Part shown: positions 30,947 to 51,220 of the stretch, piece by piece | Position numbering within the stretch: the stretch's first letter is position 1 | Layout of the letters: every line of letters begins with the position of its first letter | Origin: Phycisphaerales bacterium | GTDB taxonomy: Bacteria > Planctomycetota > Phycisphaerae > Phycisphaerales > SM1A02 | Length of the DNA: 64,000 nt | NCBI GenBank assembly: GCA_022446795.1 | Contig: JAKVBX010000003.1 | Coordinates: 51,056 to 115,055, forward strand | Direction: 5' to 3' | Program-made: the position numbers and the translations under genes | The notes under the pieces: generated by a model | The model's database searches: none | Seen by the model: only the letters and a program-made list of their open reading frames with translations | Told to the model about the DNA's origin: nothing

Positions 30947-31923
30947 GACTTGTCCTGTCCCTCTGGCGATCCTTGTTTCGACCGCCTGAACTTCTTGAAC
31001 AGGCCTTTCGGCCCGCCGGGATTGGGTACCCGTCGCGTGGTCTGAATGGATCGACCACCGGTGAGCTTGCTGTTGTCAATCCCGAGCAGATCCGCAGCGT
31101 AGCTGCTTTCACCCGTGGATTCCTCGGTCAACGGACCCTCGGCATCGCCCCTGAGGAACTGCCGGATCAGTTGCTTTGTTTCATCCAGTTCATCGAGCCG
31201 GTCGTGCGGCCAGTCCCGCAGCTTCTCGAAGGCCTCGCGTTCATCGAGCATCAGGACCTGCCCCTTGTTGAGCATGGCCATCCGATCGGCGATCGTGAAC
31301 GCGGAGTCCATCTCGTGTGTCACCACCACGCTGGCCACGCCGAGCTTCTGCGTCAGGTCGATGATCAAGCGATCGATGGACGCGGACGTCACCGGGTCCA
31401 ACCCGGCACTGGGCTCGTCATAGAACAGGATCCGTGGGTCCAGGGCCAACGCCCGGGCCAGGCCGGCTCGCTTCTTCATGCCTCCGCTGATCTGGGCGGG
31501 GAACTTGTGCGAGGCTTCCCGCAGGTCGACCAGTTCAAGCTTGATCTTCACCATGAAGTCGATGATGGCCGCGTCGAGGTCAGTATGTTCCTCGAGGATC
31601 AGGGCGACGTTGTCACCGACCGAGAGTGACTGGAAGAGGGCACCGGACTGGAACAGGATTCCGAACTTCTTGCGAATGTCATCCAGTTCGTCCTCGCCCA
31701 GGTCCGCCAGGACGTGACCGAAGAGCTTGACCCGGCCCTCGTCCGGGTGCAGCGATCCGATCATGTGCCGCAGCAAGGTCGACTTGCCGCAACCGGACCC
31801 ACCCATGATCACCATGGTCTCACCGGGCTTGATCTTCAGGTTGATGCCGTCGAGAACCGTCTGGTCGCCAAATCGCTTGACGAGGTTCTCGATCTCGATG
31901 ACATACTCGTCGTCAGTTGGCAT
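30943..31923 (-). CDS. mlaF: ABC transporter ATPase, MlaF-like
   Basis: Energises lipid transport with MlaE and MlaD. The 326-residue product has Walker A GGSGCGKSTLL, Q-loop FQSGALFQSLSVGDNV, signature ISGGMKKRAGLARALA, Walker B ILFYDEPSAGLDP and H-loop VVTHEMDSA. The FQSGALF and SGGMKKRAGLARAL forms are typical of the Mla/Ttg2 subgroup. A basic tail (KKFRRSKQ) extends beyond the usual end. The ATG at 31923 overlaps the upstream gene by 11 bp. No MlaE permease is encoded next to it. Confidence 0.9.
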   Translation of the reverse strand: MPTDDEYVIEIENLVKRFGDQTVLDGINLKIKPGETMVIMGGSGCGKSTLLRHMIGSLHPDEGRVKLFGHVLADLGEDELDDIRKKFGILFQSGALFQSLSVGDNVALILEEHTDLDAAIIDFMVKIKLELVDLREASHKFPAQISGGMKKRAGLARALALDPRILFYDEPSAGLDPVTSASIDRLIIDLTQKLGVASVVVTHEMDSAFTIADRMAMLNKGQVLMLDEREAFEKLRDWPHDRLDELDETKQLIRQFLRGDAEGPLTEESTGESSYAADLLGIDNSKLTGGRSIQTTRRVPNPGGPKGLFKKFRRSKQGSPEGQDKS

Positions 31924-32560
31924 CGTCGTCCTCGGTGTGATCCCCCGTGTCCGCACCGGGCGGGAAGACCAGGGGTGACGTATCGCCGATCCGCACCCAG
32001 GCGAATCGCAAGACCAATGCCGGCCCCTGTCCGCCGCGATCCAGGATCACGTAGCGAGCCGCGCCGGGAACCGACTCCCGGCTGAAGGTGAAGACGTAGG
32101 GTACCGAAATGGACCCGCCGTCGGGGGACCACATCGCGTCCCGCCCGGCATCCTGACTGATCGAGACAAGCGTCCCGAACCGGTCCCCCATGGCCCTCAG
32201 GAAGGTCGCCGCCTCCGACCCGGATGCGGCGTCCGTTGGGAATGCCTCCAGGAGGGCCGCCGGCGAACCCCCTTGACCAGCCAGCAGTGCCTCCTGTGGA
32301 CCATGGAGCAGGGGCGTCCGGATCGCGTCGTTCCACCAGACCAGTGCGAACGTGGTCGCCGGGGTCACTACCAGCCCGATGATGATGGCGGCAATGGCCA
32401 CCCGCCGGCCTCTTCGCTGGTGAAGACGGACGTCTCTCAAGCCCATCAAGCCACAGACGACGCCGAGCATCGTGATGACCGGGCACAACCCGACCGAGAA
32501 GGCAAGGCCCACCAGGGCCCACACGCTCCAGGGCTTCGGACTGGTCGGGGGCGCATTCAT
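31913..32560 (-). CDS. Membrane protein of unknown function with DUF4190-like N-terminus
   Basis: The 215-residue product has two N-terminal membrane segments around WALVGLAFSVGLCPVITMLGVVCGLMGL and VAIAAIIIGLVVTPATTFALVWW, the pattern of DUF4190-like proteins. A soluble domain of about 130 residues follows. Its hairpin resembles that of the next upstream gene, suggesting paralogues. It overlaps that gene (ATGA) and mlaF. The association with mlaFD suggests a membrane accessory role, but no function is established. Confidence 0.65.
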   Translation of the reverse strand: MNAPPTSPKPWSVWALVGLAFSVGLCPVITMLGVVCGLMGLRDVRLHQRRGRRVAIAAIIIGLVVTPATTFALVWWNDAIRTPLLHGPQEALLAGQGGSPAALLEAFPTDAASGSEAATFLRAMGDRFGTLVSISQDAGRDAMWSPDGGSISVPYVFTFSRESVPGAARYVILDRGGQGPALVLRFAWVRIGDTSPLVFPPGADTGDHTEDDDAN

Positions 32561-36286: not shown

Positions 36287-38287
36287 TCACGTGGCATCCG
36301 GCTGCAGCATGATGCCGGCCGGTCGCTGCCCACCGGCTCGCGTGCTCCAGATCCACCACTCGAGCATCAGCATCACCAGGGCCGCTGCAATCGCCCACGG
36401 CCAGATGGGAACGGAACCGGTCACACCAGTCGTGGTGGCCTCCACCGTCTCCTTGCCCAGCACGATGGCCTCCCGGGGCTGAAGGCTCGACTCCTCCAAA
36501 GCGGGAAAACGAACCGAGCGCCGCCTGACCCGTTGCTCACCATCCAGGCCGTCGTACTCGAGCACGTGCAGGCCGGACAAGTCCACCGGGGCCCAGGACA
36601 CGCGACCGTCCACGCTTGACGCCAGTGTCCGAACCGAGCCGTCCGGACGAGTCAGCACGGTCTCGAGATCACCACCATCCACCTCGAAGACCAGTGAACC
36701 ACCTGGAACCGCCTGCTCCTGCACGAGCGCCTCTCGACTGTGGCCCAACCAGTCCACCGCGTTGACGAGAAAAGCCACGAAGGACGGGTCATACGGCCAG
36801 GTCGACTGAACCAGGTCAAAGGCGACGTGAACCCGCGGCTGCCCCTCGTCCTGCCAGGCCATGATCAGCGGTGTCCGGCTGCCCTCCAGCAGAACGGTGA
36901 CCGATTCATCAGGTTGAATCGACTTGGTTTCGTTCACGAACAGGCGGTCGATATCGACGTGACGCATGACCGGGTGATCGGCCTTCGCCTGCAGAGCGAC
37001 CTGGCCTTCCTCCTGTGTGCCATAGACCGTCAGGAGTTCCGTCGGGGGCAACGAGCCGATGGTCAGCGTCGGGGCGTCCACCATGGTTGCTGGTGTCGTT
37101 CCATCGAAGATGACCAGGTCCCACGGTATTGCCGTATCCCGATCCTCCCACTGCGCCGACGTGAACAGTTCGAGCACTTCCAATGACACGCCACCAAGAA
37201 GCCGAGCGAGCAGTTGCCGATTGTCGGCCACGAGTGCCACGCGAAGTCGTCGCGGTGGCGGGACGACGAGCACGGCCGTGTCGTCAGCCGCCAAGGCGTC
37301 CTCACCCAGGATGGCCACCTCGATGACGGCGCCACGGGCCAGTTCAAACGGCGAGAACACGAGGCTGCGACGACCGACCACCACCTGGCCATCAAGCATC
37401 TCGCCAGCCGGGATCTCGACCTCCTGGACCGATCGGGCAGCGCCATCCACCGTCAGTTGAACATCAACCGTCGCAGGCTGCAGGGTGAAGTTGCCCAGCG
37501 AGGCAAAGACCTCGATGGCGGAAGGCTCGTCCCAGGGCCGGTCGGCCGCCAGTTGGAGAACCGCGAAGTTGACCGGCGACGCCGTCCCGATCTTGTGGAA
37601 CGTCAGCGTCTCACCCCGGAGGACCTGGTCATCGAGGTCGTCGATCCGGCCATCACTGAACAGTTCCAACTCGGCCGGGATCACCTCGGGCGTGTCCGGG
37701 TTGTCGGGGTCCGTGTTGATGGAATAGACACGAGCCAGGCGTAGCGCATCACCCAACCGACTCCGCCCATGCGATGGTTCGATGCGATCCAGCGCGGTCA
37801 GGAGTTGGGCCCGGGAATCGGAGAAGGGCTGGAGAATCTCGGCGGACTCCCCGAAGGCCACGATCATGGTCTCTCCATCACCATTGGAGAAGAGGCCACG
37901 GGGATGAAGTCGATCGATCGCGGCGCGAGCCAGCGTCAACGCCTGATCCAATCGCGACTCCCCCCCGCCATCGGTGGCCGTCATCGAACCGGAGCGATCG
38001 ATCAACAGTACGGTCCGTCCCCCCGCACCGCGGCGTCCCTCCAGTTGAGGCTGCATGATGGCCAGCACCAGCAGCAGGAGAACGATCAACTGCAGCAGTA
38101 GGAGAAGATTCCGCCGAAGACGCTGAAACGGTGAGTTGGCCTGCAGGTCGGCCGTTGATGTGAGCCACAGCAGGGTGCTGGAGACGGGCATGGTCCGTCG
38201 CCGCAACTTCAGGAAATAGAGCAGCAGCAGCGGCGGCACGACTCCCACGAGCAGGAAGAAACCAGTCCATGGCGTCAGGAGCGTCAT
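36287..38287 (-). CDS. BatA/VWA-domain membrane protein
   Basis: A 666-residue protein with the BatA N-terminus: a membrane helix (FFLLVGVVPPLLLLYFLKLRRR), the motif PVSSTLLWL, a second helix at about 60-80, then a von Willebrand A domain starting VLLIDRSGSM, where the MIDAS Asp-x-Ser-x-Ser is intact. A later beta-rich region and a C-terminal membrane helix (WPWAIAAALVMLMLEWWIW) follow. In related operons such proteins work with MoxR and DUF58 partners. The ATG overlaps the DUF58 stop by 4 bp. Function in this group is not known. Confidence 0.8.
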   Translation of the reverse strand: MTLLTPWTGFFLLVGVVPPLLLLYFLKLRRRTMPVSSTLLWLTSTADLQANSPFQRLRRNLLLLLQLIVLLLLVLAIMQPQLEGRRGAGGRTVLLIDRSGSMTATDGGGESRLDQALTLARAAIDRLHPRGLFSNGDGETMIVAFGESAEILQPFSDSRAQLLTALDRIEPSHGRSRLGDALRLARVYSINTDPDNPDTPEVIPAELELFSDGRIDDLDDQVLRGETLTFHKIGTASPVNFAVLQLAADRPWDEPSAIEVFASLGNFTLQPATVDVQLTVDGAARSVQEVEIPAGEMLDGQVVVGRRSLVFSPFELARGAVIEVAILGEDALAADDTAVLVVPPPRRLRVALVADNRQLLARLLGGVSLEVLELFTSAQWEDRDTAIPWDLVIFDGTTPATMVDAPTLTIGSLPPTELLTVYGTQEEGQVALQAKADHPVMRHVDIDRLFVNETKSIQPDESVTVLLEGSRTPLIMAWQDEGQPRVHVAFDLVQSTWPYDPSFVAFLVNAVDWLGHSREALVQEQAVPGGSLVFEVDGGDLETVLTRPDGSVRTLASSVDGRVSWAPVDLSGLHVLEYDGLDGEQRVRRRSVRFPALEESSLQPREAIVLGKETVEATTTGVTGSVPIWPWAIAAALVMLMLEWWIWSTRAGGQRPAGIMLQPDAT

Positions 38288-39207
38288 TGCAGAAGCCCCT
38301 GTCTTCGCAGGTACTCCACGAGCAGGACTTCCATGTCGACATCCGTCCCGATCGTGAGATGCCCGATACCACGACGACTGCACCATTCGCGCAAGCCCGT
38401 GCAGTACCGGTCCAGCCGCTCGCGATAGGACCGGAGCAACCCGGGTGTCACGGTGATCTCGCAGTGCGCTCCCGTCTCCATGTCGCGAAGACGGACGTCC
38501 CCGGAGAGTCCACGGGACGCCGGGTCCAGTTCATCCGGAGCGAGGGCCTGGATGCAGAACACGTCGTCTCCTCCACCGGTGATGTAGCGAAGCCCGGTGT
38601 CGTAGCCCTCGGGATCAAGGAAGTCAGAGAGCACGACCAGCACCCCTCGACCTCTCCGGCCCAGCGCGATGGAACGCATCGATGCGTCCATCCCACCGGG
38701 TTCACCGGCTTCCAGTTCAAGCAGCCACTTGGCCATCTCGCGCGTCCGCCGTCGACCACGCAGGCTCGTCAGGGGCTTGACCCCCTCCCCGTCGAAGCCG
38801 TAGAGGCTGACCCGGTGCTGGTTGGCCAGGCCGATGTAGCCCAGGGCCATGGCCAGCCGCTTGCAGAAGCCCAGCTTGTTCGGACCACCCCAGTCCATGG
38901 AGGGACTCGTATCGATGGCAATCGCCAGCGAGAGATCCTCTTCCTCGAGGAACAGCTTGAGGAAGAGCGTCTCCAGGCGAGCGTAGATATTCCAATCCAC
39001 GAAGCGCAGATCATCGCCTGCGGAGTACGGGCGGTAATCCGCAAAGTCGATGCTCTGACCGCGACGTCGACTCCGTCGCTCACCATGCACCTTGCCGCTG
39101 AAGATCTTGCGGGAGAGAACGTCCAGCCGATCCAACTTGGCCATGAGCGCGCCGCCGAGCAGATCCTCGACCGTCTGCGGTGATGTGCCTTCGCCCCAGG
39201 AACTCAT
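38284..39207 (-). CDS. DUF58 domain protein
   Basis: DUF58 proteins are VWA-like partners of MoxR ATPases; some affect peptidoglycan or oxidative-stress responses. The 307-residue product has the family block FADYRPYSAGDDLRFVDWNIYARLETLFLKLF near residue 57, preceded by basic residues (RRSRRRGQ), and an MIDAS-like motif AIDTSPSMDW. It is cytoplasmic, with no membrane segments. It overlaps both neighbours by 4 bp (moxR before, BatA after), which indicates coupled translation and likely physical partnership. Confidence 0.85.
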   Translation of the reverse strand: MSSWGEGTSPQTVEDLLGGALMAKLDRLDVLSRKIFSGKVHGERRSRRRGQSIDFADYRPYSAGDDLRFVDWNIYARLETLFLKLFLEEEDLSLAIAIDTSPSMDWGGPNKLGFCKRLAMALGYIGLANQHRVSLYGFDGEGVKPLTSLRGRRRTREMAKWLLELEAGEPGGMDASMRSIALGRRGRGVLVVLSDFLDPEGYDTGLRYITGGGDDVFCIQALAPDELDPASRGLSGDVRLRDMETGAHCEITVTPGLLRSYRERLDRYCTGLREWCSRRGIGHLTIGTDVDMEVLLVEYLRRQGLLQ

Positions 39208-40289
39208 GCCGCATCCTCGCTGGCCGGTACGGACTCCGGTTGGAAGGCGGGCGTATCCACTGGAACCTCGCGAAGCAGGGCACGCACGACGTCCGACCCA
39301 CGGACACCGTCGGTTCCGGCTTCGAAGGTCAGGCCCAGTCGATGCCGGAGCGCCGCCGGCGCGACTCGACGGATGTCCTCGATGGAAGCGGCGAAGCGAC
39401 CATCCGCGACGGCCAGCACCTTGGCCGCCATGATCAGGGCCTGTGCCCCTCTCGGGCTGGCGCCCATGCGGATGTGACGACGCAGCGGCTCGGGAAAGTC
39501 CGGGTGCTCGGGCAAGGTCGCCAGGATCAGTCGAATGGCATAGTCCTGCACGTGCGGCGCCACGACCGCGTCACGCATCAGCCGACGGGCGGCCAGCAGG
39601 AATCCGCCATCGAGACGCTGGTTGGCCTCGGGCTGCTGGTTTCCCGTCGTGCGGGACAGGATCTCGTTCAAGTCGTCACGAGCCACGCCGGGCACCTCGA
39701 CCTTGAACAGGAACCGATCCAGTTGTGCCTCCGGAAGTGGATATGTCCCCTCCTGCTCAATCGGGTTCTGCGTGGCCAGGACGAAGAAGGGGTCCGGCAG
39801 GGAACGCGTTTCACCCCCGCTGGTCACGGTCCGCTCCTGCATCGCTTCCAGCAGAGCCGACTGGCTCTTGGGCGTCGCGCGGTTGATCTCGTCCGCCAGC
39901 ACGAGTTGGTGGAAGATCGGTCCCGGTCTGAACACGATCTCACGCTTCCGCGTCACCTCGTGCTCGACGACGATGGTCGTTCCCGTGACATCCGCCGGCA
40001 TGACGTCCGGCGTGAACTGGATCCGTGCGAAGTCCAGGTCCAGGGCCTGCGCAATGGTCCGAACCAGGAGCGTCTTGCCCAGGCCGGGAACACCTTCCAG
40101 CAGGACATGGCCACCGGCGAACAGCGCGACGAGCGTCTCGTCAACGACCTGCTGCTGGCCCACGATCACCCGGCCGATCTCGGCACGCAACAGGGAGAAC
40201 TGCTCACGGGCCGTCTCGCATGCCGCGCGAACACTCTCCAGGTCCGCTGGATCCCAATCAAGTACGACATGGCCACCAGCCCTGGTCAT
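39204..40289 (-). CDS. MoxR-family AAA+ ATPase
   Basis: MoxR ATPases act as chaperones for assembly or metal insertion of partner complexes, often with VWA proteins. The 361-residue product has Walker A GVPGLGKTLLVR, Walker B VLADEINRATPKSQSALLEAM, sensor-1 FFVLATQNPIEQEGTYPLPEAQLDRF and the arginine finger in the same segment. The C-terminal lid region contains GASPRGAQALIMAAKVLA. It overlaps the VWA gene before it and the DUF58 gene after it by 4 bp each, giving a VWA-MoxR-DUF58-BatA order. Confidence 0.95.
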   Translation of the reverse strand: MTRAGGHVVLDWDPADLESVRAACETAREQFSLLRAEIGRVIVGQQQVVDETLVALFAGGHVLLEGVPGLGKTLLVRTIAQALDLDFARIQFTPDVMPADVTGTTIVVEHEVTRKREIVFRPGPIFHQLVLADEINRATPKSQSALLEAMQERTVTSGGETRSLPDPFFVLATQNPIEQEGTYPLPEAQLDRFLFKVEVPGVARDDLNEILSRTTGNQQPEANQRLDGGFLLAARRLMRDAVVAPHVQDYAIRLILATLPEHPDFPEPLRRHIRMGASPRGAQALIMAAKVLAVADGRFAASIEDIRRVAPAALRHRLGLTFEAGTDGVRGSDVVRALLREVPVDTPAFQPESVPASEDAA

Positions 40290-43234
40290 GGCCCGTCATC
40301 TCCCAGGCCACGCTTGCGAGCCCGCTCACGAGCAGCCTTCAGCCGGGCGGTCATGCCACCTTCCGCCTCGGTGTCCTCGATCTCATCCGTGCCCTCGACC
40401 GGCGATGGTGTCGACGCCGTGGGCGTTGTCTCATCCGACGTCGACAAGGCAGAGGACTCGCCGGTCTCCGCCGTCAGGTGATCCAGTTTCGTCTCGTTGA
40501 TCCGGGTCCTGGTGGACGCAGACTTCTTGGTCCGCCGCCACGCAGACAACGCCCCGTCGCTTCGTTTTTCCCGGCGGGCCGAGGCCCGGGCAATGGCCTC
40601 CCGGACACGCTCTGGATCAACGGCCAGGCGACGCAGTGCGACATCCAGAACCAGCAGGATCGCCGCCGCAATGGCCAGCATCGTCCACATGTCACTTGCG
40701 GAGGAGGGCATCACCAGTGACTCCCGGTCATACAGGTCGACGGGAACGGCATCCTCCATGGACAGGACTCGCCCCCCGGTCTGCTCGGCGACCCTGCGCA
40801 GCATGGATGCATTGTCCACCAGGTCGCGGTACTCGTCGGAATAGGCCCGCGTCGCGGCAGCCTGGACATTGCCGTTGATCGTCTCACCCTCGGCGTCACG
40901 ACCGGCGAAGTTCACGTTGATGACGGACGTCCCCGCCTGCCGCTGGTGGAATTCACCGCGGTAACGACCCGGTCCGATCTGCTGCAGGTCCAGTGGTTCC
41001 GTCTGGCCATCGGGCCCGATGCGGGCTGCCTTGGTCTCCAGGAAGTTCAGGAACGTCTCGCTGGGATCAAAGGCCTCCAGTTCAACCACGAACTGCCCCC
41101 CGCCGACGTCCTCGATGTTCAACTCGAAGTCCGACCGGGTGGAGGAACGCATCAACCACCGGATGGTCTGCTCGGCGAATGCACCAAACCGGCTCCATCC
41201 GACCCAGTTGGCCCCCCATCGTCCCGAGAACTCACTGGTGAAGGCGACGGATCGACCGAGCCCGTAGTTCCACCACGCGTAGAGGGGATCCTCGTGCTCC
41301 TGGTTCCGAACGATCATCCCCACCCGCGCCAGGCCCTCGCGTGCCACGGTCAGGACATACCCGCGAACATCGGGAATCTCACTGATTCCCTGGGCCGGTC
41401 CCGTGATCGTGTCGACGACGGCTGTCGAGAAGGCCCCCTCCTGGATCAGCGACCGACTGACGACGCGGGCTTCCTTGATGAAGATCTGCGGCAACTTGTT
41501 GGGATCGTCAACCCGGTAGTAGGTGCCACCGGTGATGGTGGCGATCCGCTGCATGGCCGCTTCATTCAGGGGGTTGTTCGCATGCCATCCCACCATGATC
41601 GTCGACACGGTCACGCCGGCATCGGCGTACCGGGAGAGCAACGCCCCCGACGGCGGCTGCGGATCACCATCGGAAATGATGATGACGTGACGCTGCCCGG
41701 CGTCGCTGGCGGCCAGCCCCTCGAGCGCCATCGTCATCGACGGCCCGAAGTACTGCATGTCCCCGAACGTCAACTGCTTGGCCGCGGACAGGGCGCCCAG
41801 TCGGTCACCCACCGGCTGCATGTCATAGACCCACACGGCGCTGCCGCCGCCCTTCTCGATGATGCCGACGTCGTCGGCCGCATTGAGCGTCTCGATGGCC
41901 GCTTCGGCGACCCGGCGTCCCCAGTAGTTGCCCTGGGGCATCTCGCAGGAGTGCACGATGATCGCGAGTGCGCCCTTGACGATCTGCCGTTCCGCGGGCG
42001 GATCCAGGTTGAGTGGAATCGCCGGTTCCAACGACGATCCGATCCAGCCGCCTGCGCCGAAGGACTCGGGTCCGCCGGACATGAACAGTCCACCGCCGGT
42101 GTCGTGGACATAGGCGTGCAGATCGCGAACCTGGGCATCGGTAAACAACCACCGGGGAACGTCACAGATGGCAATGGCGTCATAGGCCAGCATGCCAACC
42201 ACGCCCGTGCCGATCTCCGACGGAAGCTTGCGAACGGACTGGATACCGGCATCGGTCAGCGCTTCCTGGAGCGCCTGGCCACCCCCGGTTCCGCTGTCGA
42301 TGATCAGGATGGCCCCGGCGCCCGAGACGAAGGTGACCGCGGCTCCCGCGTTGTTGGCGGCGACGCGATCCCCACCCGCGGCGCCGGGATCCGGTTCAAA
42401 CGTCGCCTTGAAGACAACCGGTCCCGGTTCGCCCGCGTCCACCGTGATGCGCTCGACATGAACACCACCCTCCAGTGAGAGTGGCACGGCATACCCCGGC
42501 TCGGCACCATTGATGTCCACGACCGTGCCATCACGTTCCAGGACAAGCCGTCCCGAGGACGCCCCGCGGCTCCGGAGCACCAGCCGCAACTCGATGGACT
42601 GGCCCATGCGCGCATGTGATGGCGCGATGATGCGGTCGAAGAGCACCTCGTCGCTGTATTCGTACTCGATCGGCAGGACGTCGATGGGAATGCCCTGCGC
42701 CAGGTCGATCGCCGCCAGCAGGTTGCCGACGGTCTCATTGCCATCACTGACGAGCACGATCCGGCTCGCCGTATCGCGCGGCAGCAATCCCTTGGCCTGC
42801 TCGATGCCGGCCGCAAGGTTGGACTCCGTGACATCCGCCGGCCCGCTCTGCAGGGAGATCACCGAGGCTGGATCCGGCATGGCCGTCGGGACGGCATCCC
42901 GGCCGACCTGGACGACCGCCAGGCGATCGTCCGGCAGCCGCTGCGGTCCCTGTGCTGCTTCTTCCAACCAGTAGCTGGCCCGCTCCAGTTGACTGCGACC
43001 GATGGACCGGCTGCGATCGAGCACGACCGCGACGGTCAGTCCCTCCGACTCCCGTTGCAGCACGGGCTCGGCCATCGCCACGCTGAGAACCAGGATCAGC
43101 AGGGTCCGGGCGATTCCGATCGAGATCCAGCGGCCCGGTCCGAACGCCTCCTGGCTGCGTCGCAACCACCACCACGTCGGTACCAGCAACACCGCCAGGA
43201 GAAGCCAACCGGGTTGTTCAAAGTGAATCGGCAC
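40286..43234 (-). CDS. Large membrane protein with VWA and class I GATase-like domains
   Basis: The 982-residue protein has two N-terminal membrane helices (LLLAVLLVPTWWWL; IARTLLILVLSVAMA), then a VWA domain starting VAVVLDRSRSI, with the MIDAS DxSxS. A GATase1/ThuA-like region follows around residues 320-440 (ILIIDSGTGGG, SGGPESFGAGGW), then a second VWA-like half with VIIISDGDPQPPSG and a C-terminal membrane helix at about 868-885. A long polar tail rich in Ser/Thr/Glu closes it. The start codon is GTG. It heads the tight VWA-MoxR-DUF58-BatA block. Confidence 0.75.
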   Translation of the reverse strand: MPIHFEQPGWLLLAVLLVPTWWWLRRSQEAFGPGRWISIGIARTLLILVLSVAMAEPVLQRESEGLTVAVVLDRSRSIGRSQLERASYWLEEAAQGPQRLPDDRLAVVQVGRDAVPTAMPDPASVISLQSGPADVTESNLAAGIEQAKGLLPRDTASRIVLVSDGNETVGNLLAAIDLAQGIPIDVLPIEYEYSDEVLFDRIIAPSHARMGQSIELRLVLRSRGASSGRLVLERDGTVVDINGAEPGYAVPLSLEGGVHVERITVDAGEPGPVVFKATFEPDPGAAGGDRVAANNAGAAVTFVSGAGAILIIDSGTGGGQALQEALTDAGIQSVRKLPSEIGTGVVGMLAYDAIAICDVPRWLFTDAQVRDLHAYVHDTGGGLFMSGGPESFGAGGWIGSSLEPAIPLNLDPPAERQIVKGALAIIVHSCEMPQGNYWGRRVAEAAIETLNAADDVGIIEKGGGSAVWVYDMQPVGDRLGALSAAKQLTFGDMQYFGPSMTMALEGLAASDAGQRHVIIISDGDPQPPSGALLSRYADAGVTVSTIMVGWHANNPLNEAAMQRIATITGGTYYRVDDPNKLPQIFIKEARVVSRSLIQEGAFSTAVVDTITGPAQGISEIPDVRGYVLTVAREGLARVGMIVRNQEHEDPLYAWWNYGLGRSVAFTSEFSGRWGANWVGWSRFGAFAEQTIRWLMRSSTRSDFELNIEDVGGGQFVVELEAFDPSETFLNFLETKAARIGPDGQTEPLDLQQIGPGRYRGEFHQRQAGTSVINVNFAGRDAEGETINGNVQAAATRAYSDEYRDLVDNASMLRRVAEQTGGRVLSMEDAVPVDLYDRESLVMPSSASDMWTMLAIAAAILLVLDVALRRLAVDPERVREAIARASARREKRSDGALSAWRRTKKSASTRTRINETKLDHLTAETGESSALSTSDETTPTASTPSPVEGTDEIEDTEAEGGMTARLKAARERARKRGLGDDGP

Positions 43235-43303
43235 GACACGGGCACCTGCTGTCCATGGACCTTGACGATGTGATCATACCCCCGGCAAGACGAGCCCCGT
43301 CAC

Positions 43304-45787
43304 TCACGGCTCCCCGGGGTTCAAGCGGAGGATCCGGTTGTTGCCGCTGTCGAGCACAAGCGTCGTTCCACCCTGCTCCACGACGGCCCAGGGATCGCGC
43401 AATTGACCCGGACCCCATCCCCATCCCCCGTTGGCGGCCAGGATCTCACCATCGGCCGAAAGGTGAAGCAGGAGATTGGTCCCGGTGTCGCTGACCAGCA
43501 GCGATCCGTCATCGCGGAACCAGACGCTGAATGGGGTCCGCAGATCGCCCTCGTAGCCACCTTGCCGCAGGACCCGCCAGTCACCACTGGCCAGGTCCAT
43601 CAACTGGATCCGCTGGTTGCGGGAGTCGGCCACGGCCATCGTCCGTCCATCCGGGGAGATGCACATGGACTGGGGGCGATCGAACATCCCCGGCGCCGTC
43701 CCGGTCCCACCGATGGTCCGGATCCACTCCCCATCGATCGTGAAGACCTGGATGCGGTCGTTCCCGCCGTACTCACTCACGAACACGACGTCATCATCAC
43801 CGAAGGCGATGTCCGTGGGGTAGATGAACTGGCCGGGACCGGTTCCGTAGGACCCCACCTGCTGCTTCCACTCACCGTCCGGCCCGTAGACCATGACGCG
43901 ATGTTCATGCGTGTCCGCCACCCAGATGTTGCCACGCGGACCGATCGTGATCCCCGTGGGGCGACCCTGGTTGATGCGCGGCATGGTCCAGGAGGCCAAC
44001 GGACGCCCCTCGGGATCAAGCCGTTGCACACGGCCGGATTTGTCGACGACGAACAGCTCACCGGTTTGCGCATCCACGTCAATCGCCCGCGGGTAGTCGA
44101 AGCGTCCCGGCGCATGTCCCGCGCCACCGATGATGGAGTCCACGGTCAACGGGACTGGACCCTCCTCCGGATCACTGCTGCAGCCGACAAGCATGATCGA
44201 GAACGCGAGCAACAGGACGGCCGGTGCGTTGGAGACTCGGCGGGCCATGACCAATGAAGCCCCGCCCAGCCCGCTGGCCACCACGAGGCCGACCACGACC
44301 AGCAGGGCCAGGACCGCCACCACGGTGTCCGGTCGCTGGTAGTGCATGGCATTGAGCAGGGTCACGCTGATCGGTGGCGAGGGGGCCGGTGGCGTCAGGA
44401 GCATCGAGACCGGGATCTCGCCCAGCGCCAGCAGTCCTGACACGGCTCCCACCCCCGCAGCCATCAACCAGGTGCGCGGGCCTTCGGCTCGCCAACCGCC
44501 CGGGTTGAGCCGGCGGAGGTCACGCAGCGGCGTTGGTTCCGACCACACGATCCATCGGGCCGCCAACGCCGCCAGGCCTCCGAAGCGGGCAACGAGTCCG
44601 ATGAACAACGCGGCTCCGTCCCGCAGCAGCCAGGCCTGCACCGACGTCCATGGCAGCATGGTCACACCCGCAAGCACCATCGCAGCCACCAACGAACCAG
44701 GCGCCAGCAATGCGGCGAACCACAGGATTGACAATGCGTTTCCAATGCACCGCCACGGGCGACTCTCCGCACGGAGCAAGGCAAGCAGGCCCAGGAACAC
44801 GATGATCACCAGGCCACCCGTGATCAGTGCGCGAATCGCGTCCCGCCCGATGGACTCACCATGACCTGCCCACAGGTCGAGCGACGCCGCATTGAGCCCG
44901 ACGAAGACCAGGACAACTGGTACGAGTACCGTCAGCCCCCAGGTGATCACCAGCATGGCCCAGGCACCTCGTCCGATGGGCGCCGGCTCCGGTGCCGCAT
45001 CATCGATGGGACGACCAAGCGTCCACCAGGTGATACCGGCAGCCAGGATCGCCGCTGCGCCGGCGGGAATCGACACCCAGACCATCGCACTCGGTCCGGC
45101 CTTCATCGCGGCCAGGGCACGCAACTCGTTACCAACGGTAAACACGCCGGCCAGGTCGAAGCAGATCACGTTTCCAAAGACGAAGGCCGCCACCAGAAGT
45201 CCGCCAAGCAGCAGCCCTCCACCGTCGTGATGCATCCGAGCCCGGGCACGCTGCCACCACGACGCTCCGTCGGTCTGCAACTGGTCGCTTCGGGACCGAG
45301 GCCACGTCGCCGCGGCCGGCGCCACGCAGAGGGCCACCAGTGGCCACGACCACGAGACCAGGGCGACGGCCAGCGTGACGGTGCGGCCGAAGCCCACCGC
45401 ATCCCAGGCCACCAGTCGATCGAACAGCCAGGACCCGGCGGGCCAGGTCTGCCACCAGGCATAGAAGAGCGCATAGGACGGGACCAGCAAGGGGAAGAGG
45501 ATCAACGCCAGCGCGATGGGCCAACCCCTCGCCCCGGATTGGCGACGGGCATGCAACAGTCCCCCAAGCACTCGGCCGGGGATCCAGCCCAGCGCCATCG
45601 CAACGAGGCCCACGCCGACCGACCAGGCGATGGTCCGCAGCGTCAGAACCAACGGGTCATGCAACATCGGCGTGGCCGCAGTCGGCGAATCGGATCCGAA
45701 GCTGTCCAGGATGATCGCCACGAGGGGCCAGCACAGCGTCGCGAGGCCACCGACGAGAACCAGTCCGGCAAGACTACGGCGCAGCAT
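43304..45787 (-). CDS. Iron-type ABC permease fused to an NHL-repeat lipoprotein-like domain
   Basis: Residues about 1-510 are a two-lobed binding-protein-dependent permease with about 12 membrane helices, as in ferric-iron (FbpB-like) systems. In the same frame, residues 514-536 read MARRVSNAPAVLLLAFSIMLVGC, a signal peptide with lipobox LVGC, followed by NHL repeats to residue 827 (GRFDYPRAIDVDAQTGEL, GRPTGITIGPRGNIWVADT, GPGQFIYPTDIAFGDDD). The internal ATG at 44248 has no clear Shine-Dalgarno. It may be a natural fusion or two proteins from one frame. It overlaps the binding-protein gene by 14 bp. No ATPase gene is nearby. Confidence 0.75.
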   Translation of the reverse strand: MLRRSLAGLVLVGGLATLCWPLVAIILDSFGSDSPTAATPMLHDPLVLTLRTIAWSVGVGLVAMALGWIPGRVLGGLLHARRQSGARGWPIALALILFPLLVPSYALFYAWWQTWPAGSWLFDRLVAWDAVGFGRTVTLAVALVSWSWPLVALCVAPAAATWPRSRSDQLQTDGASWWQRARARMHHDGGGLLLGGLLVAAFVFGNVICFDLAGVFTVGNELRALAAMKAGPSAMVWVSIPAGAAAILAAGITWWTLGRPIDDAAPEPAPIGRGAWAMLVITWGLTVLVPVVLVFVGLNAASLDLWAGHGESIGRDAIRALITGGLVIIVFLGLLALLRAESRPWRCIGNALSILWFAALLAPGSLVAAMVLAGVTMLPWTSVQAWLLRDGAALFIGLVARFGGLAALAARWIVWSEPTPLRDLRRLNPGGWRAEGPRTWLMAAGVGAVSGLLALGEIPVSMLLTPPAPSPPISVTLLNAMHYQRPDTVVAVLALLVVVGLVVASGLGGASLVMARRVSNAPAVLLLAFSIMLVGCSSDPEEGPVPLTVDSIIGGAGHAPGRFDYPRAIDVDAQTGELFVVDKSGRVQRLDPEGRPLASWTMPRINQGRPTGITIGPRGNIWVADTHEHRVMVYGPDGEWKQQVGSYGTGPGQFIYPTDIAFGDDDVVFVSEYGGNDRIQVFTIDGEWIRTIGGTGTAPGMFDRPQSMCISPDGRTMAVADSRNQRIQLMDLASGDWRVLRQGGYEGDLRTPFSVWFRDDGSLLVSDTGTNLLLHLSADGEILAANGGWGWGPGQLRDPWAVVEQGGTTLVLDSGNNRILRLNPGEP

Positions 45788-46832
45788 CGGCTTGGCTTTC
45801 CTTCAGGGCGGTCACCGCCTGGTTGACGGCCATGGGATAGATCGATGCCACCTGCTCGAGATCAACGGGCATGGGATCGGGCACCTGCAACTGCGGGAAG
45901 TCATCGGCCACCTCCGGCACCAACGGCACGTTCCCGGAAACCGACTCCGCCAGCGCCCGGGCGACGTCCGCCGACAACAGGAAGTCGACCAGTTCACCGG
46001 CCCGAGGATGGGACGAGCCGGAAACCAACGCCACCGTGTTGGGCATCATGAAGGTGCCGACCCCGTCAACGGGACCAACCGCGTGCATCTCCAGTTGGGC
46101 GCCGAGTCGATTCGCCGCGCGCACGTCATCGGCATCGGTCAGGCCCACGAGGGCCCGGCCCACCCGGACCTCTTCAACCACCGCCGCATTGCCGCCCGGC
46201 AGAACACGGACACCATTCGCCGAAAGACCATCGAGCAGCGAGGCATAGCCCGCGGCATCATCCCGATCGTCATACCAGGCGCGAAGCGCCGCGAGGTGAC
46301 CGCCGGTAGTGCCGAATCGTGGATCGGCCATGGCGATCTGCCCCCGCCATCGCGGATCGGACAAGGCGGCCAGTGACGTGGGAACATCTCCCGCGTCCAC
46401 CTGTTCCGGGTCGTATACCAGGACCCGCGGCCGCGGCGAAAAACCGAACCAACGGCCGTCGGGATCACGCCACCGGGGAAACCAGTCATCGACCGCCTCG
46501 GATTGAAATGGCTGCAGCAGGTCTTCCCGGGCCAGTTGGATCGTCATGAACGCCTCGGAAGACCAGAACACGTCGGCCAATGGCGACTGGCGTTCCGCGC
46601 GGAGACGCTCGACGAGGCCGGTCGTCTTCGTGGCCTCGGTATCACCGACCATGTGAACAGGAATACCGGATTGACGTGAAAACGAATCGAGGATGGGACG
46701 AGCGACGTATTCATCAGCCGAGACGTAGACGACCAATGGCGTCTCGCGACGCTCGCATCCCGTCGACCAGGCCGACAGGAGGAACAGGACCACGATTGGC
46801 AGAACGGCGAACGAGCCGCTATTGCGCTCCAC
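45774..46832 (-). CDS. Iron(III)-type ABC transporter substrate-binding lipoprotein
   Basis: A 352-residue periplasmic binding protein of the FutA/FbpA type. The signal has lipobox LLSAWSTGC (Cys at about 26), so the protein should be lipid-anchored. Family segments include PLVVYVSADEYVARPILDSFSRQSGI at the start, SPLADVFWSSE and FMMPNTVALVSGSSHP. The start is a GTG at 46832 that overlaps the upstream stop by 14 bp; the longer frame is excluded because it runs through the upstream coding region. The permease gene overlaps its end by 14 bp. Metal identity is not proved. Confidence 0.8.
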   Translation of the reverse strand: MERNSGSFAVLPIVVLFLLSAWSTGCERRETPLVVYVSADEYVARPILDSFSRQSGIPVHMVGDTEATKTTGLVERLRAERQSPLADVFWSSEAFMTIQLAREDLLQPFQSEAVDDWFPRWRDPDGRWFGFSPRPRVLVYDPEQVDAGDVPTSLAALSDPRWRGQIAMADPRFGTTGGHLAALRAWYDDRDDAAGYASLLDGLSANGVRVLPGGNAAVVEEVRVGRALVGLTDADDVRAANRLGAQLEMHAVGPVDGVGTFMMPNTVALVSGSSHPRAGELVDFLLSADVARALAESVSGNVPLVPEVADDFPQLQVPDPMPVDLEQVASIYPMAVNQAVTALKESQADAAP

Positions 46833-48591
46833 CGGACGCGCCCCCGTTGGACTTCTCCGCCGGCTTCTCGTCGGAAGCCTCGGTTGATTCCTTCGCGTCT
46901 GACTCCACCGCCTTCTCAACCGCAGCCTGGTCACCGAAGTAGTGCTTGAGGGCCTCGTGATACTGGCGAGGCAGACGGCTCTCGTTGAAGGCCTCATCGA
47001 ATCCCTCGCGGGCGGCCTGGCGAGCCTGGGTAAAGGTCATGCCCGAAGTACCAACGTCGGACGCCCGTTCGACCGGCATGCTGGAGACCACCGGACCATT
47101 CCCCGCGGATCCGCTGTCATCTTGAAGCGTGGTATTGCTGGCCGTGACCTCTTCACCGACCGATTGCCCCTGGCCCCCCATCCCCCCGACACCCGGCTTG
47201 GGGCCGTTGCAGGCCCCCTGCTTGGCGAGTCCCTGCCCCAGCTTGTCGCATTGACTCTGGCAGGCGCTCCGGGCGGACTTGGCCTTGTTGATCATGTCCT
47301 GGAGTTGCTCGATCTGGCTCAGCTGCTGGGACATGCCCTTGCAGGCCTGCTGCGACTCGCTCTGCTTGCCGCCGGACTTGCCGTTCTTGCAGTTGGAGCA
47401 GGCCTGTTCCGTGGCCTCGGCCAGTTCCTCGAGCATCTTCTTGACCTGCTCGCTCGACTCGGCCATTTCCTTGAGCTGCTGCTTCTGCGTTTCATTGAGT
47501 TGCGAGGCCTGCTCCAGGGCCTTCTTCAGGGCCTCGGGATCAGAGGCGAGACCGGGGTCCAACCCCGCCTGCTTGAGCGCGTCGGAAAGCGCCTGCTGAT
47601 CGGACGAGAGGTCACGGAGTTGTTCCGCAAGATCCTTCAACGCCGCGGCCGCCTGATCACGCTGGGCCTGGGTCATGTCACTGGACTGGATCTTCTGATC
47701 GAGCGCCGACAGGGCGTCCTCGGCCTTGCCGAAATCCGCCTTCGACAGCGCCTCGACCAGTTCCTTGATCGGGCTGTCTTCCGTCGAGTTGAGTGACTTG
47801 AGTGATTCTTCCAACTGCTCCAGGGCCTGGCCCTCGGTGCCGTTCAGGAGATCCTCGAGGCGACGATCCAGTTCCGACACGCGCTTGAGCGCCTCGCGAC
47901 GGATCGACTCCTCGTCCTGCTTGGAGTCCAGGGAGCCCTCCATCTGGGCCTCCATGTCCGCAATCGCATCCGCCATCGCCTCGGACAAGGCCGGGTCTTC
48001 CTTGATGGCATCAACCGTTGCGTCTACCGATTCCACCGCATTGGCACGGACTTCTTCGAGATCAACCGTCTCGATCTGCCGCGCGGAGAGCAGATCCCAC
48101 TGGCCGAAGAACGTGATGACCAGGGCCACCACGGCCAGGGCCGGCGTGGCCCACCAGAATGGTGGAGGCGAGACGCGGAACCGCCGCTTGGTCGACTCGC
48201 GAACCTGTGGCGAACCGGCCACGGTCCGTGCGTCCTCTACCAACGCTCGTGCAAACGGATCCTCTCGATCCGAACAGGCCAATGCAGATGAGAGCCGATC
48301 CTTCAAGCCCAGGCGCCAGTCGATCTGTCGAGCGGTCTCCAGGGGGAGCGGTCGGCTCCGCCACCAGCCAACGATGCCCGCAAGCACCGCGATGATGGCA
48401 CTGGCCACGATGAACAACGTCCACGGGACCCAGGCCTCGGCGCCGAGTCGATCAACCATGGCCAGCACGACGGCCACCACGGCCAGGGCCAATGCCACGA
48501 GACTGAACCAGGCCAGGCCGGCAGACAACCGTTCGCGCCGGCTGACCATCCCGACGACCCGCTTGATCTCATCCTTCTGGTGGTTGCTCAT
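46819..48591 (-). CDS. Membrane-anchored coiled-coil protein with a cysteine-rich region
   Basis: The 590-residue protein has three membrane helices (about residues 22-40, 45-68 and 147-167), then a long coiled coil rich in Glu, Leu, Ala, Gln and Ser (about 190-390). A cysteine-rich, Gly/Lys/Gln-rich region at about 395-480 includes EQACSNCKNGKSGG, SACQSQCDKLGQG and GACNGPKPG. With three helices the coiled coil should be periplasmic. It resembles in outline the DUF4175-like proteins of bat-type operons but is not confidently assigned. It overlaps the binding-protein gene by 14 bp. Confidence 0.65.
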   Translation of the reverse strand: MSNHQKDEIKRVVGMVSRRERLSAGLAWFSLVALALAVVAVVLAMVDRLGAEAWVPWTLFIVASAIIAVLAGIVGWWRSRPLPLETARQIDWRLGLKDRLSSALACSDREDPFARALVEDARTVAGSPQVRESTKRRFRVSPPPFWWATPALAVVALVITFFGQWDLLSARQIETVDLEEVRANAVESVDATVDAIKEDPALSEAMADAIADMEAQMEGSLDSKQDEESIRREALKRVSELDRRLEDLLNGTEGQALEQLEESLKSLNSTEDSPIKELVEALSKADFGKAEDALSALDQKIQSSDMTQAQRDQAAAALKDLAEQLRDLSSDQQALSDALKQAGLDPGLASDPEALKKALEQASQLNETQKQQLKEMAESSEQVKKMLEELAEATEQACSNCKNGKSGGKQSESQQACKGMSQQLSQIEQLQDMINKAKSARSACQSQCDKLGQGLAKQGACNGPKPGVGGMGGQGQSVGEEVTASNTTLQDDSGSAGNGPVVSSMPVERASDVGTSGMTFTQARQAAREGFDEAFNESRLPRQYHEALKHYFGDQAAVEKAVESDAKESTEASDEKPAEKSNGGASGGAQ

Positions 48592-48632
48592 CGTCGCTCC
48601 GCAGACAGGTGGAGGTGAATTCCACCTCAAGT

Positions 48633-49205
48633 CTACCCCTCCGATGGCGATGGCACGGCCTTTCCGGCACGAACTCGCATCACGATGCCCACGATCAGGC
48701 ATCCCAGGCCGACCGGCCCCATGATCGCGGCCACCAGGGCCCCCACCAGGATGGGCATGACCACGGCCATGACGGTGAAGGTCCCGTAGGCGTACACCGC
48801 GGAGCGATCGTCATCCGACGGGGCCACCCCGACCAGTCGCCACCGACCCGCACCGAGGTCCGCGGTCGCGATCATCCGACCTTGACGTTCCAGCAACTTG
48901 TAGTTGGCCTTCAGTCCCGGCGACTCAAGCGTGACCTCCGCCCCGCTGTCCACCGACACCAGGCTGAGCGTCATGGTGGGCTCCTCGGGAGAGACGTAGT
49001 CGGCGCCGTCCACTTTGGACATCGGCTCGTAGCCCACGTTCAGCGTCGCGGGCTGGTCCAGTTCGAACTCGACCGAACCGGGCATGACTACCTGGCGCAT
49101 GTCGAAGGTCGAGATCGACCAGGCCAGGCCGACGATCACCACGATGGTGGCAAACACCATCAAGATGATCCCGCTGATGATCCACTTGCGAGGCGAACGC
49201 CTCAT
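48633..49205 (-). CDS. Two-helix membrane protein of unknown function
   Basis: The 190-residue product has an N-terminal membrane helix (WIISGIILMVFATIVVIVGLAW), a soluble beta-type domain of about 100 residues (VEFELDQPATLNVGYEP, AEVTLESPGLKANYKLL) and a C-terminal hydrophobic pair (FTVMAVVMPILVGALVAAIM and GLGCLIVGIVMRV). Export of the central domain to the periplasm is likely. It overlaps nrnA by 4 bp and lies 41 bp before the coiled-coil gene, so it belongs to the same array. No family recognised. Confidence 0.65.
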   Translation of the reverse strand: MRRSPRKWIISGIILMVFATIVVIVGLAWSISTFDMRQVVMPGSVEFELDQPATLNVGYEPMSKVDGADYVSPEEPTMTLSLVSVDSGAEVTLESPGLKANYKLLERQGRMIATADLGAGRWRLVGVAPSDDDRSAVYAYGTFTVMAVVMPILVGALVAAIMGPVGLGCLIVGIVMRVRAGKAVPSPSEG

Positions 49206-50230
49206 TCGGTGGCACCCAGTTCACTGGTGACCTCGAGGATCCGATCCCGGGCCACGTCGATCGGTCCGGCAACCCGGGCGCCCGCCGCGTGAACATGACC
49301 ACCCCCACCCAATTGGCGGGCCAGCGCGCTGGCATCAACGAACGGACCACCGGCACGCTTGGGCGGCTTGGATCGGAAGCTGATCTTGGTCTCCGCGTCC
49401 CCCTCGCTGCAGAGCAGGACGGAACATTCCACGGAGGCAATCTCCATCGGGATGTTCACGGTTCCGGCCAGTTCACCCTGGTTCCCGCCGGTCTCCTTGA
49501 AGTCCCGCGGATGCAGTGACATCAGGGCACAACGGTCATCGTGCAGGAGTTCCAGCGATTGCATCGCCCGGGCCTGGAGCGCCAGCCGAGTGGGACGCGC
49601 CGTTTCCTCGATCGTGCGATACAGACCATCTCGATCCACGCCGATCTCCAGCAGTCGTGATGCGGCGGCAAAGGCGCGGGAGTCGGCATTGCTGAATCGG
49701 AACCACCCGGTATCGGTCGCCAGTCCACAGAACAGCGCCTCGGCCACGCTCTCGGGACCGCCCGTGATCGGCAGTCCCATCGTGTCCAGGAGATCCATCA
49801 TGACCAGCGTGCACGACGCTGCCTTCGTATCAACCCACCGGAGACCACCCATGTCATCCCCGGACGCATGGTGATCCAGCACGATGATCCGATCCTGCCG
49901 TTCCCGCAGCCAGGGCGCCACCTGTTCGACCTGGCTGTAGGCACCGGTGTCCACCACCAGCACCAGGTCCTCGCCGGATTCGGGCATCTGCTGCGAGGCG
50001 TCGATCCAGGGGGTCGAGCCGGCAATCAGTCGGATTGCCGAGGGAACCGGTCCCATCAGCAGGACATCGACGCGGTCCCCGAGGGCCCGTCGGATCGACA
50101 TGGCCGATCCGATGGCATCACCATCAGGCTTGGCGTGCGTCGTGACAACGATCCGCCCGGCGTCTGCCACCAGCGCCGCGATGTTGGCCAGGTCGGTATT
50201 GGATTCGTATTTGAACATGGCTGTGGCCAT
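49202..50230 (-). CDS. nrnA: DHH-family phosphoesterase, NrnA-like (oligoribonuclease/pAp phosphatase)
   Basis: NrnA removes nucleotides from short RNA oligomers and dephosphorylates 3'-phosphoadenosine 5'-phosphate. The 342-residue product has the DHH-family metal motifs THAKPDGDAIGSA (residues about 31-43), VLVVDTGA and LDHHASGD, and the DHHA1 end GGGHVHAAGA. Order and spacing match the NrnA group. The start is 3 nt after the ribF stop. In this class the activity substitutes for the Orn oligoribonuclease. Confidence 0.9.
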   Translation of the reverse strand: MATAMFKYESNTDLANIAALVADAGRIVVTTHAKPDGDAIGSAMSIRRALGDRVDVLLMGPVPSAIRLIAGSTPWIDASQQMPESGEDLVLVVDTGAYSQVEQVAPWLRERQDRIIVLDHHASGDDMGGLRWVDTKAASCTLVMMDLLDTMGLPITGGPESVAEALFCGLATDTGWFRFSNADSRAFAAASRLLEIGVDRDGLYRTIEETARPTRLALQARAMQSLELLHDDRCALMSLHPRDFKETGGNQGELAGTVNIPMEIASVECSVLLCSEGDAETKISFRSKPPKRAGGPFVDASALARQLGGGGHVHAAGARVAGPIDVARDRILEVTSELGATE

Positions 50231-50233
50231 ACT

Positions 50234-51133
50234 CTACCGGGCGACCAGTTCCCGCACGCGATCCAGGTCATGTCCGATGGCCCGTTTCAGGGCCTCGATC
50301 GAGTCGAAGACCAATTGCTCCCGCAGCCAGTGATGGAGTTCCACGGACAGCGTCCAGCCATAGGAATCGACCGGGCCGTTGAATTCCAGGAGGTGGACCT
50401 CGCAGGATCGCCGACCGTCACCGAAGGTCGGATTGGTACCAACGCTCACGGCTGCCGGCCAACGCGTGCCATCCTCCATGAGGCCGACCCCGGCGTAGAC
50501 GCCGTCTGCCGGCAGCAGCAGGTCAGCGGTCTCGAGGTTGGCCGTTGGCCACCCCAGTTCCCGCCCACGCTTGTGACCGGACTCGACCGTCCCCCGGACC
50601 TGCCAGGGACGACCGATCATCACGTTGGCATCGCGCACGCGACCGCGGTCCAGCAGGCGCCGAATCACCGAGCTGCGGACCGGGACAACGGAACGATCCA
50701 GGAGCGTGGTCTCCACGACCTCGACCACGTGGACCCCGAAGCCCTGGTCCCGGCCGATCTCGCGGAGTCGATCCAGGTCACCGCCTCGTTGATGGCCGAA
50801 GCGAAAGTCAGGTCCCTCCACGATGTGATCGGGCTGATGCTGTCGGCAGAGGTCATCAATGAAGGACCGGGCGTCCATCGCCAGCAGGTCCGTCGTCGTG
50901 TCCAGCACATGGACATGATCCACGCCTGCCGCCTGGAGGGCCTCGGTCCTCTGGGAGGCCATCGTCAGCCGGGCGGGCTCCCGACCGGGTGCCAGGATGG
51001 CGGCTGGACTGGGCTCGAAGGTCACCACGACCACGCGGCCCTCCGGACCCACCAGTTCCCGGGCCCGATCGACCAGCGCACGATGGCCCTGGTGGACGCC
51101 GTCGAACATCCCGATGGAGACTGCCGTGGACAT
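50234..51133 (-). CDS. ribF: Bifunctional riboflavin kinase/FAD synthetase
   Basis: Makes FMN from riboflavin and ATP, and FAD from FMN. The 299-residue product has the N-terminal FAD synthetase nucleotidyl-transferase motif IGMFDGVHQGHRALV and the loop RTEALQAAGVDHVHVL, then the flavokinase domain beginning RPWQVRGTVESGHKRGRELGWPTANL with VYAGVGLMEDG. It heads the long minus-strand array and is divergent from the glutamate dehydrogenase gene. A -10-like TAGGCT ends 7 nt before the ATG. Confidence 0.95.
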   Translation of the reverse strand: MSTAVSIGMFDGVHQGHRALVDRARELVGPEGRVVVVTFEPSPAAILAPGREPARLTMASQRTEALQAAGVDHVHVLDTTTDLLAMDARSFIDDLCRQHQPDHIVEGPDFRFGHQRGGDLDRLREIGRDQGFGVHVVEVVETTLLDRSVVPVRSSVIRRLLDRGRVRDANVMIGRPWQVRGTVESGHKRGRELGWPTANLETADLLLPADGVYAGVGLMEDGTRWPAAVSVGTNPTFGDGRRSCEVHLLEFNGPVDSYGWTLSVELHHWLREQLVFDSIEALKRAIGHDLDRVRELVAR

Positions 51134-51140
51134 GGTGCGG

Positions 51141-51146
51141 AGCCTA
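51141..51146 (-). promoter_or_regulatory. -10-like hexamer TAGGCT, leaderless arrangement
   Basis: On the minus strand TAGGCT ends 7 nt before the ribF ATG at 51133, with no Shine-Dalgarno. Confidence 0.4.
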
Positions 51147-51185
51147 GCACGACGGTGCCTGGTCAGCCGTTACGGAATGTTCTCG

Positions 51186-51214
51186 TTGCAGCGTCTAGAG
51201 GCCCCGGATACAGT
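51186..51214 (+). promoter_or_regulatory. Promoter TTGCAG-N17-TACAGT, leaderless arrangement
   Basis: TTGCAG (51186-51191) and TACAGT (51209-51214) are separated by the ideal 17 bp; the -10 ends 6 nt before the ATG at 51221. This is the best-formed leaderless promoter here. Confidence 0.6.
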
Positions 51215-51220
51215 TCCGCG

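Follow-up and report, generated by a model that had tools for sequence, protein, structure and literature searches.

A transporter subunit and a beta-propeller encoded as one chain with an internal lipoprotein signal in planctomycetes: a candidate polyprotein

In many planctomycetes a transporter subunit and a beta-propeller are encoded as one chain with a complete lipoprotein signal between them, which suggests a single precursor that is cut into two proteins. The example considered here comes from a 64,000-nucleotide stretch of a Phycisphaerales genome (contig JAKVBX010000003.1), below called the window. Post-translational cleavage at the internal lipobox fits the data best; this idea was absent from the preliminary description of the window. 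It is probable that the gene encodes a polyprotein, whose chain would enter the membrane, receive a lipid from Lgt and be cleaved by LspA at the internal lipobox to give a transporter subunit and a periplasmic lipoprotein. It is also rather likely, if slightly less so, that planctomycete LspA serves as a polyprotein-maturation protease, the signal having been internalised repeatedly behind a permease or an ATPase and each such chain being cut in two.

The gene is a single 827-codon frame on the minus strand, from the ATG at 45787 to the stop at 43304. This agrees exactly with the preliminary description, in which the strand was unstated; in the matching frame of the plus strand, stops interrupt the reading and there is no open frame. 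The permease part, described there as about 510 residues, covers residues 1-513 and is followed by a lipoprotein signal and then by NHL repeats, and Met514 at 44248 indeed begins the mid-protein signal. Residues 514-536 consist of MARRVSNAPAVLLLAFSIMLVG, immediately N-terminal of Cys536, and then this cysteine itself. The parts of the gene and its neighbours are as follows, the fraction 26/26 referring to large fused loci.

44249..45787, minus strand: FbpB-like ABC permease part (residues 1-513), predicted from the AF2 model and Foldseek
44183..44248, minus strand: candidate internal lipoprotein signal peptide, residues 514-535 (positive n-region, hydrophobic h-region, lipobox LVG), from the sequence
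44180..44182, minus strand: lipobox Cys536, predicted point of lipidation and LspA cleavage, invariant (103/103)
43304..44179, minus strand: NHL-repeat beta-propeller (residues 537-827, predicted periplasmic) and stop codon, by Pfam NHL and Foldseek
45774..46997, minus strand: substrate-binding lipoprotein gene (Pfam SBP_bac_6, 7.1e-21), overlapping the start of the fusion by 14 bases
46819..48702, minus strand: conserved neighbour gene with a membrane and coiled-coil look by eye; no Pfam match, BLASTP homologue in 26/26
40286..43234, minus strand: vWA-domain protein, conserved neighbour (Pfam VWA; 26/26)
39204..40289, minus strand: MoxR-type AAA+ ATPase, conserved neighbour (Pfam AAA_3; 26/26)
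38284..39207, minus strand: DUF58 protein, conserved neighbour (Pfam DUF58; 26/26)
36287..38386, minus strand: BatA/vWA protein, conserved neighbour (Pfam BatA and VWA_2; 26/26)

Residues 1-513 match no Pfam permease model at E up to 0.001, none of the permeases of 34 aligned relatives does so at E up to 0.01, and an NCBIfam search of the permease part found nothing. Thus fold comparison was needed for its identity. The AF2 model (mean pLDDT 88.6) consists of two confident modules with a junction below pLDDT 50 at residues 518-542. According to Foldseek, the permease part resembles the FbpBC ferric importer 9j4r_A (TM-score by target 0.77, 527 columns). The helix list, read by eye from the DSSP assignment of the model, comprises 12 transmembrane helices in two six-helix halves with coupling helices. 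The predicted fold is that of an FbpB-type permease with both halves present. Such an arrangement would leave the permease C-terminus in the cytoplasm, so that the next helix would run outward and the propeller would be periplasmic. The NHL part matches Pfam NHL (1.9e-20), and its Foldseek matches are the NHL domains of Thin and TRIM71.

The proposed course of events is the following. Firstly, the permease would insert with both termini in the cytoplasm, as the model implies. Secondly, the internal lipoprotein signal would act as a thirteenth helix and export the NHL propeller. Then Cys536 would be lipidated by Lgt, and signal peptidase II (LspA) would cut before it. The products would be the permease, retaining the spent signal as its C-terminal helix, and an NHL lipoprotein anchored to the membrane on its periplasmic side; relatives in which the parts are split are predicted to make this pair from two genes. 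Both would be components of an ABC uptake system of the FbpB type; in this lineage the ATPase gene of the system is not beside the fusion. The own genome, that is, the genome containing the window, encodes both LspA and Lgt.

The preliminary description proposed a natural in-frame fusion, and this is upheld by a single frame covering both parts in 38 of 61 genomes (the own genome and 60 relatives from the same genus to the same order; one of the 38 is cut by a contig end). Two-gene homologues, the search for which was suggested in the same description, do exist. In G028 and G008, both of the same family, the propeller has a frame to itself, which includes a lipobox. The permease stop lies 4.6 kb before the Cys codon in G028, and in G008 it overlaps the propeller ATG. 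The fusion would have been discounted if all relatives encoded two genes, and the 38 fused genomes show that they do not. The pattern of a polyprotein, one frame here and two separate proteins in relatives, is thus observed.

In a broader set the starting point was 213 loci, of which L038 has no NHL part; removal of duplicates reduced the other 212 to 166 distinct cases, 108 fused and 58 non-fused. The loci were picked by best match or by frame length, which favours fused ones, and therefore the ratios of fused to split cases are not prevalences. Many of the frames derive from metagenome-assembled genomes. The separate propeller gene of split relatives carries its own predicted lipoprotein signal: 56 of the 58 non-fused rows have a cysteine at the equivalent place behind a hydrophobic stretch, as located by a hydrophobicity rule that is biased toward finding one. 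Of the other two, L210 has lost the cysteine and L042 is cut off at a contig end, as is L037 among the same 58 rows. For 31 of these non-fused rows a permease frame was found on the propeller's strand. Outside the class, all but one of the matches listed start at profile position 500 or later, that is, they have no permease; the exception, G692 (L280), adds another permease fusion, whose N-terminal part lies in a different frame. On a FastTree tree built from the NHL domain only (161 propellers, 160 of them labelled; five short rows left out, L037 unlabelled), the fused or split state changes nine times, and eight of the changes are forced by well-supported branches. Candidate reasons for recurrent fusion are equal dosage, coupled synthesis, or neutrality because processing would undo the fusion.

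An assembly error at the junction, against which the preliminary description had cautioned, does not account for these data. A stop codon between two genes could be misread in assembly or sequencing. Indeed, at least 11 genomes with a match over both parts contain one to three stops, so that one misread stop could fuse some of them, and each of the fusions isolated among split rows (L156, L164, L183, L191) is known from a single assembly. Two of these eleven genomes, G292 and G119, read as one frame over both parts on re-reading. However, the single frame recurs in 38 of the 61 genomes, and the 108 distinct fused frames come from many assemblies and group strongly on the tree. They lead us to reject an artefact for the whole clade, and its probability for the gene under study is close to nil.

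Evidence for processing comes from the conservation of the internal lipobox. In an alignment of 103 distinct fused proteins the lipobox cysteine is invariant, and the preceding position is G in 79, S in 13, A in 10 and N in one, i.e. G, S or A in 102. Position -3 is mostly L, M, I or V, and position -2 is less constrained, with P or F in many of the proteins. Only 38 of the 103 conform to the strict pattern [LVI][ASTVI][GAS]C, and 97 to a wide one. The n-region (positions -32 to -17) has a mean net charge of +2.2 and at least one R or K in 91 proteins; the mean hydropathy of the h-region is 1.9. This alignment predates five added fused rows (L164, L183, L191, L212, L213), all of which have the cysteine. 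In the full set of 108 rows the cysteine was found by a pattern requiring G, A, S or N at -1, and for this reason the -1 counts are those of the 103-row alignment. Judged from sequence, the candidate signal thus has the attributes of a lipoprotein signal, with a small residue at -1, Cys at +1, a positive n-region and a hydrophobic h-region. It starts at residue 514 of an 827-residue frame rather than at the N-terminus, and the lipoprotein class would fit only the predicted mature NHL product, not the primary chain.

The surroundings of the cysteine are variable. The only column consisting entirely of Cys is that of the lipobox, the next-highest Cys column reaching 67%. In columns 518-534 the most common residue of any column reaches at most 38 of 103. 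In the alignment of the 34 relatives, C536 is the sole invariant residue between Y483 and G557. The helix ahead of the cysteine varies freely while the cysteine and the small residue before it stay. The distance from Y483 to the cysteine may be as short as 39 residues; helix 12 and the signal can thus be joined by a short loop, and access of Lgt and LspA is not assured.

One possibility is that the chain remains uncleaved, the former signal serving as a thirteenth transmembrane helix that permanently tethers the propeller to the permease. The single frame is conserved across many genera, and linking the propeller to either subunit of one transporter, permease or ATPase, would be functionally sensible. 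However, a tether needs hydrophobicity only, whereas the cysteine is kept in all 103 permease fusions and in 19 of 19 ATPase fusions, with G, S or A before it in 102 of the former and G in all of the latter. Moreover, split relatives encode the propeller separately with a predicted lipoprotein signal. Selection for processing by Lgt and LspA predicts retention of the cysteine and the small -1 residue, and a mere tether does not. We consider a permanent tether unlikely. The suggestion in the preliminary description that the old signal had become a linker helix is likewise not borne out: a decayed signal is ruled out by the invariant cysteine, and the conservation of the cysteine and of the -1 position is much like that in the neighbouring substrate-binding lipoprotein, where Cys is present in 102 of 103 aligned homologues and position -1 is G, S or A in 100 and C in two.

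The other suggestion made there was a second start at 44248. Internal initiation would yield the lipoprotein separately while the long chain is also made. The ATG at 44248 is 22 codons before the cysteine, a suitable distance, and some ATG occurs at positions -36 to -14 in 55 of the 108 fused rows. However, the Met514 column is Met in only three of the 103 fused proteins. Between residue 505 and 13 residues before the cysteine, ATG is lacking in 63 of 103, and 14 contain none of ATG, GTG and TTG. The ribosome site sought at 44248 is not apparent, there being no Shine-Dalgarno-like 4-mer upstream of this ATG; before a possible junction start such 4-mers occur in 7 of 108 fused rows versus 12 of 56 split rows. 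At positions -36 to -14 any start codon is absent in 8 of 108 fused and 8 of 56 split rows, and ATG in 53 of 108 and 23 of 56, respectively; this narrow interval alone does not separate the models. In addition, two of the 19 ATPase fusions lack a candidate start at -36 to -12, and with no stop at the junction the permease alone would never be produced. The lipobox is kept, yet no start-codon position is conserved, and internal initiation seems very improbable.

Cleavage of a precursor would apply equally to a second type of fusion, present in other planctomycetes. G446 has a single frame in which an ABC ATPase (PF00005 and TOBE_2) comes first and the same propeller second, with an internal lipobox between them. 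Among 20 further long frames, 18 are fusions of the ATPase and NHL parts; the lipobox cysteine is missing from the remaining two, L293 and L295, which are not fusions of this kind. The 20 candidates were chosen by frame length, and the 19 ATPase fusions, with that of G446 among them, were kept by a search for Walker A and the lipobox, none failing on the lipobox. The 19 fusions (L281, L290-L292, L294, L296-L309) all have Gly-Cys at the internal lipobox. Their ATPase has Walker A and the signature motif (LSxGE), and the TOBE end continues straight into the signal. In family f73 (L293 and L295) the NHL protein is seemingly anchored by a plain N-terminal helix without the lipobox cysteine. These two propellers, together with the loss of the cysteine in L210, indicate that lipidation is not indispensable everywhere.

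At four loci with ATPase fusions (L310-L313) BLASTP finds the substrate-binding protein in all four and the vWA gene in three, and a permease profile matches three. For the gene at 46819 a single weak match was obtained at these loci. In L311 and L313 the order of genes is a transmembrane protein (by position), the substrate-binding protein, the permease, the ATPase-NHL fusion, and the vWA gene. This is the order of the window plus an ATPase. It suggests that the lineage of the window lost the ATPase here, and that the fusion partner of the propeller gene is whatever gene stands in front of it.

The gene adjoining the fusion upstream encodes a substrate-binding protein of the type that matches an FbpB importer, similar to ferric-binding proteins. 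Its homologue was found in 94 of the 108 fused loci, and in 92 of these it ends close upstream on the same strand. The motif TDxDD is invariant (103/103) and occupies roughly the position of the iron-binding tyrosines in ferric-binding proteins (FbpA). The tyrosines expected of a ferric importer were not found in the substrate-binding protein, and with TDxDD roughly where they would be, its ligand may not be ferric iron.

Transporter genes, namely those of the substrate-binding protein and of the permease-NHL fusion, co-occur with a MoxR/vWA/DUF58 cluster over 36287-48702. Each of the 26 fused loci that span 18 kb or more has BLASTP homologues of the gene at 46819 and of the substrate-binding protein, vWA, MoxR, DUF58 and BatA/vWA genes, the comparison scoring gene presence rather than order.

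With a profile of the ATPase half, no ABC ATPase was found beside any fusion in loci L001-L213. The profile matches five of these loci; four are among the 26 large ones, where the match lies about 9 kb downstream at the locus edge. The ATPase of L136, the only one of these tested, is GldA/DrrA-like. The only match in the window, at 30943-31956, is 11 kb from the fusion and MlaF-like. It adjoins a gene with an MlaD/MCE domain (29540-30946), and the two likely form a lipid-transport system. Elsewhere in the window, a 1440-residue plus-strand frame with NAD-glutamate dehydrogenase domains (49868-54190) overlaps minus-strand genes of a DHH protein (49202-50230) and of FAD synthetase/riboflavin kinase (50234-51133); its true start is therefore probably further in.

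An orphan ATPase of the PotA subfamily is encoded on another contig of the own genome (C7, L248:4324-5385), with no permease or substrate-binding protein gene as a neighbour and between mnmE-like and parB-like genes (N-termini read by eye). It has the best score of four ATPases compared with the ATPase profile. At 1e-80 its homologues occur in 51 of 61 genomes, including some without the fusion, and at the same threshold are absent from seven fusion carriers (G013, G017, G025, G026, G029, G034, G038). Its presence thus tracks the fusion poorly, and it is a candidate partner that we do not claim.

The same neighbourhood allows a different view of function, in which the substrate-binding protein, the permease-like protein and the NHL protein serve the adjacent MoxR/vWA/DUF58 cluster as a scaffold or sensor in the envelope and no longer form a transporter. 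This would agree with the lack of an FbpC-type ABC ATPase beside the fusion, with the failure of all 34 permeases to match a Pfam permease model, and with the MoxR, vWA and DUF58 homologues in all 26 large loci. However, other families fuse the propeller to an ABC ATPase with Walker A and the signature motif, next to a permease and a substrate-binding protein. The permease model has the FbpB fold, and the genome does contain, at another place, the gene of the orphan PotA-subfamily ATPase. We regard loss of transport as doubtful. It concerns function rather than processing, and can be combined with the polyprotein explanation.

If the predicted cleavage does occur, lipoprotein signals are not necessarily N-terminal, and predictors of N-terminal signals would miss these lipoproteins. 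Lgt and LspA would have to accept a signal attached to a 12-helix protein in one case and to a folded ATPase in the other, and the fusions would provide a natural experiment on the working of both enzymes' lateral entrances. They would also represent a cellular bacterial polyprotein that evolution has switched many times between the fused and split states.

Clusters with the same trio of gene types have been described: MoxR-vWA-beta-propeller ternary systems are reported to combine MoxR, vWA and beta-propeller genes in one cluster (eLife 2020, PMC7159879). The cluster studied here differs in that its MoxR protein matches AAA_3 at 1.2e-62 versus 4.4e-15 for bpMoxR, and in that it includes transporter genes; membership is not claimed.

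The propeller fold is common to the NHL part and the propellers of TRIM71 and Thin, and models of the ScyF/ScyE family match it with scores below their cut-offs. Unlike all these propellers, the NHL part is a predicted lipoprotein and clusters with ABC-transporter genes. The permease part shares its predicted fold with the FbpB-type permease of Thermus thermophilus FbpBC (9j4r), and both go with a substrate-binding protein of the ferric-binding type, encoded here by the adjoining gene. In contrast to FbpBC, an NHL lipoprotein is fused on, no FbpC-type ATPase adjoins, and the permease has no Pfam permease match.

Titles and abstract openings, with few subscription journals among them, contained no bacterial polyprotein with an internal lipobox. 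The closest precedent is FbcH of Bradyrhizobium, a cytochrome b/c1 polyprotein with an internal signal peptide, cut post-translationally by signal peptidase I. There, too, a polytopic membrane protein is fused to an exported protein via an internal signal peptide. However, FbcH is a cytochrome precursor cut by signal peptidase I, whereas here an Lgt/LspA lipobox joins an ABC subunit to a lipoprotein, and the cleavage is predicted.
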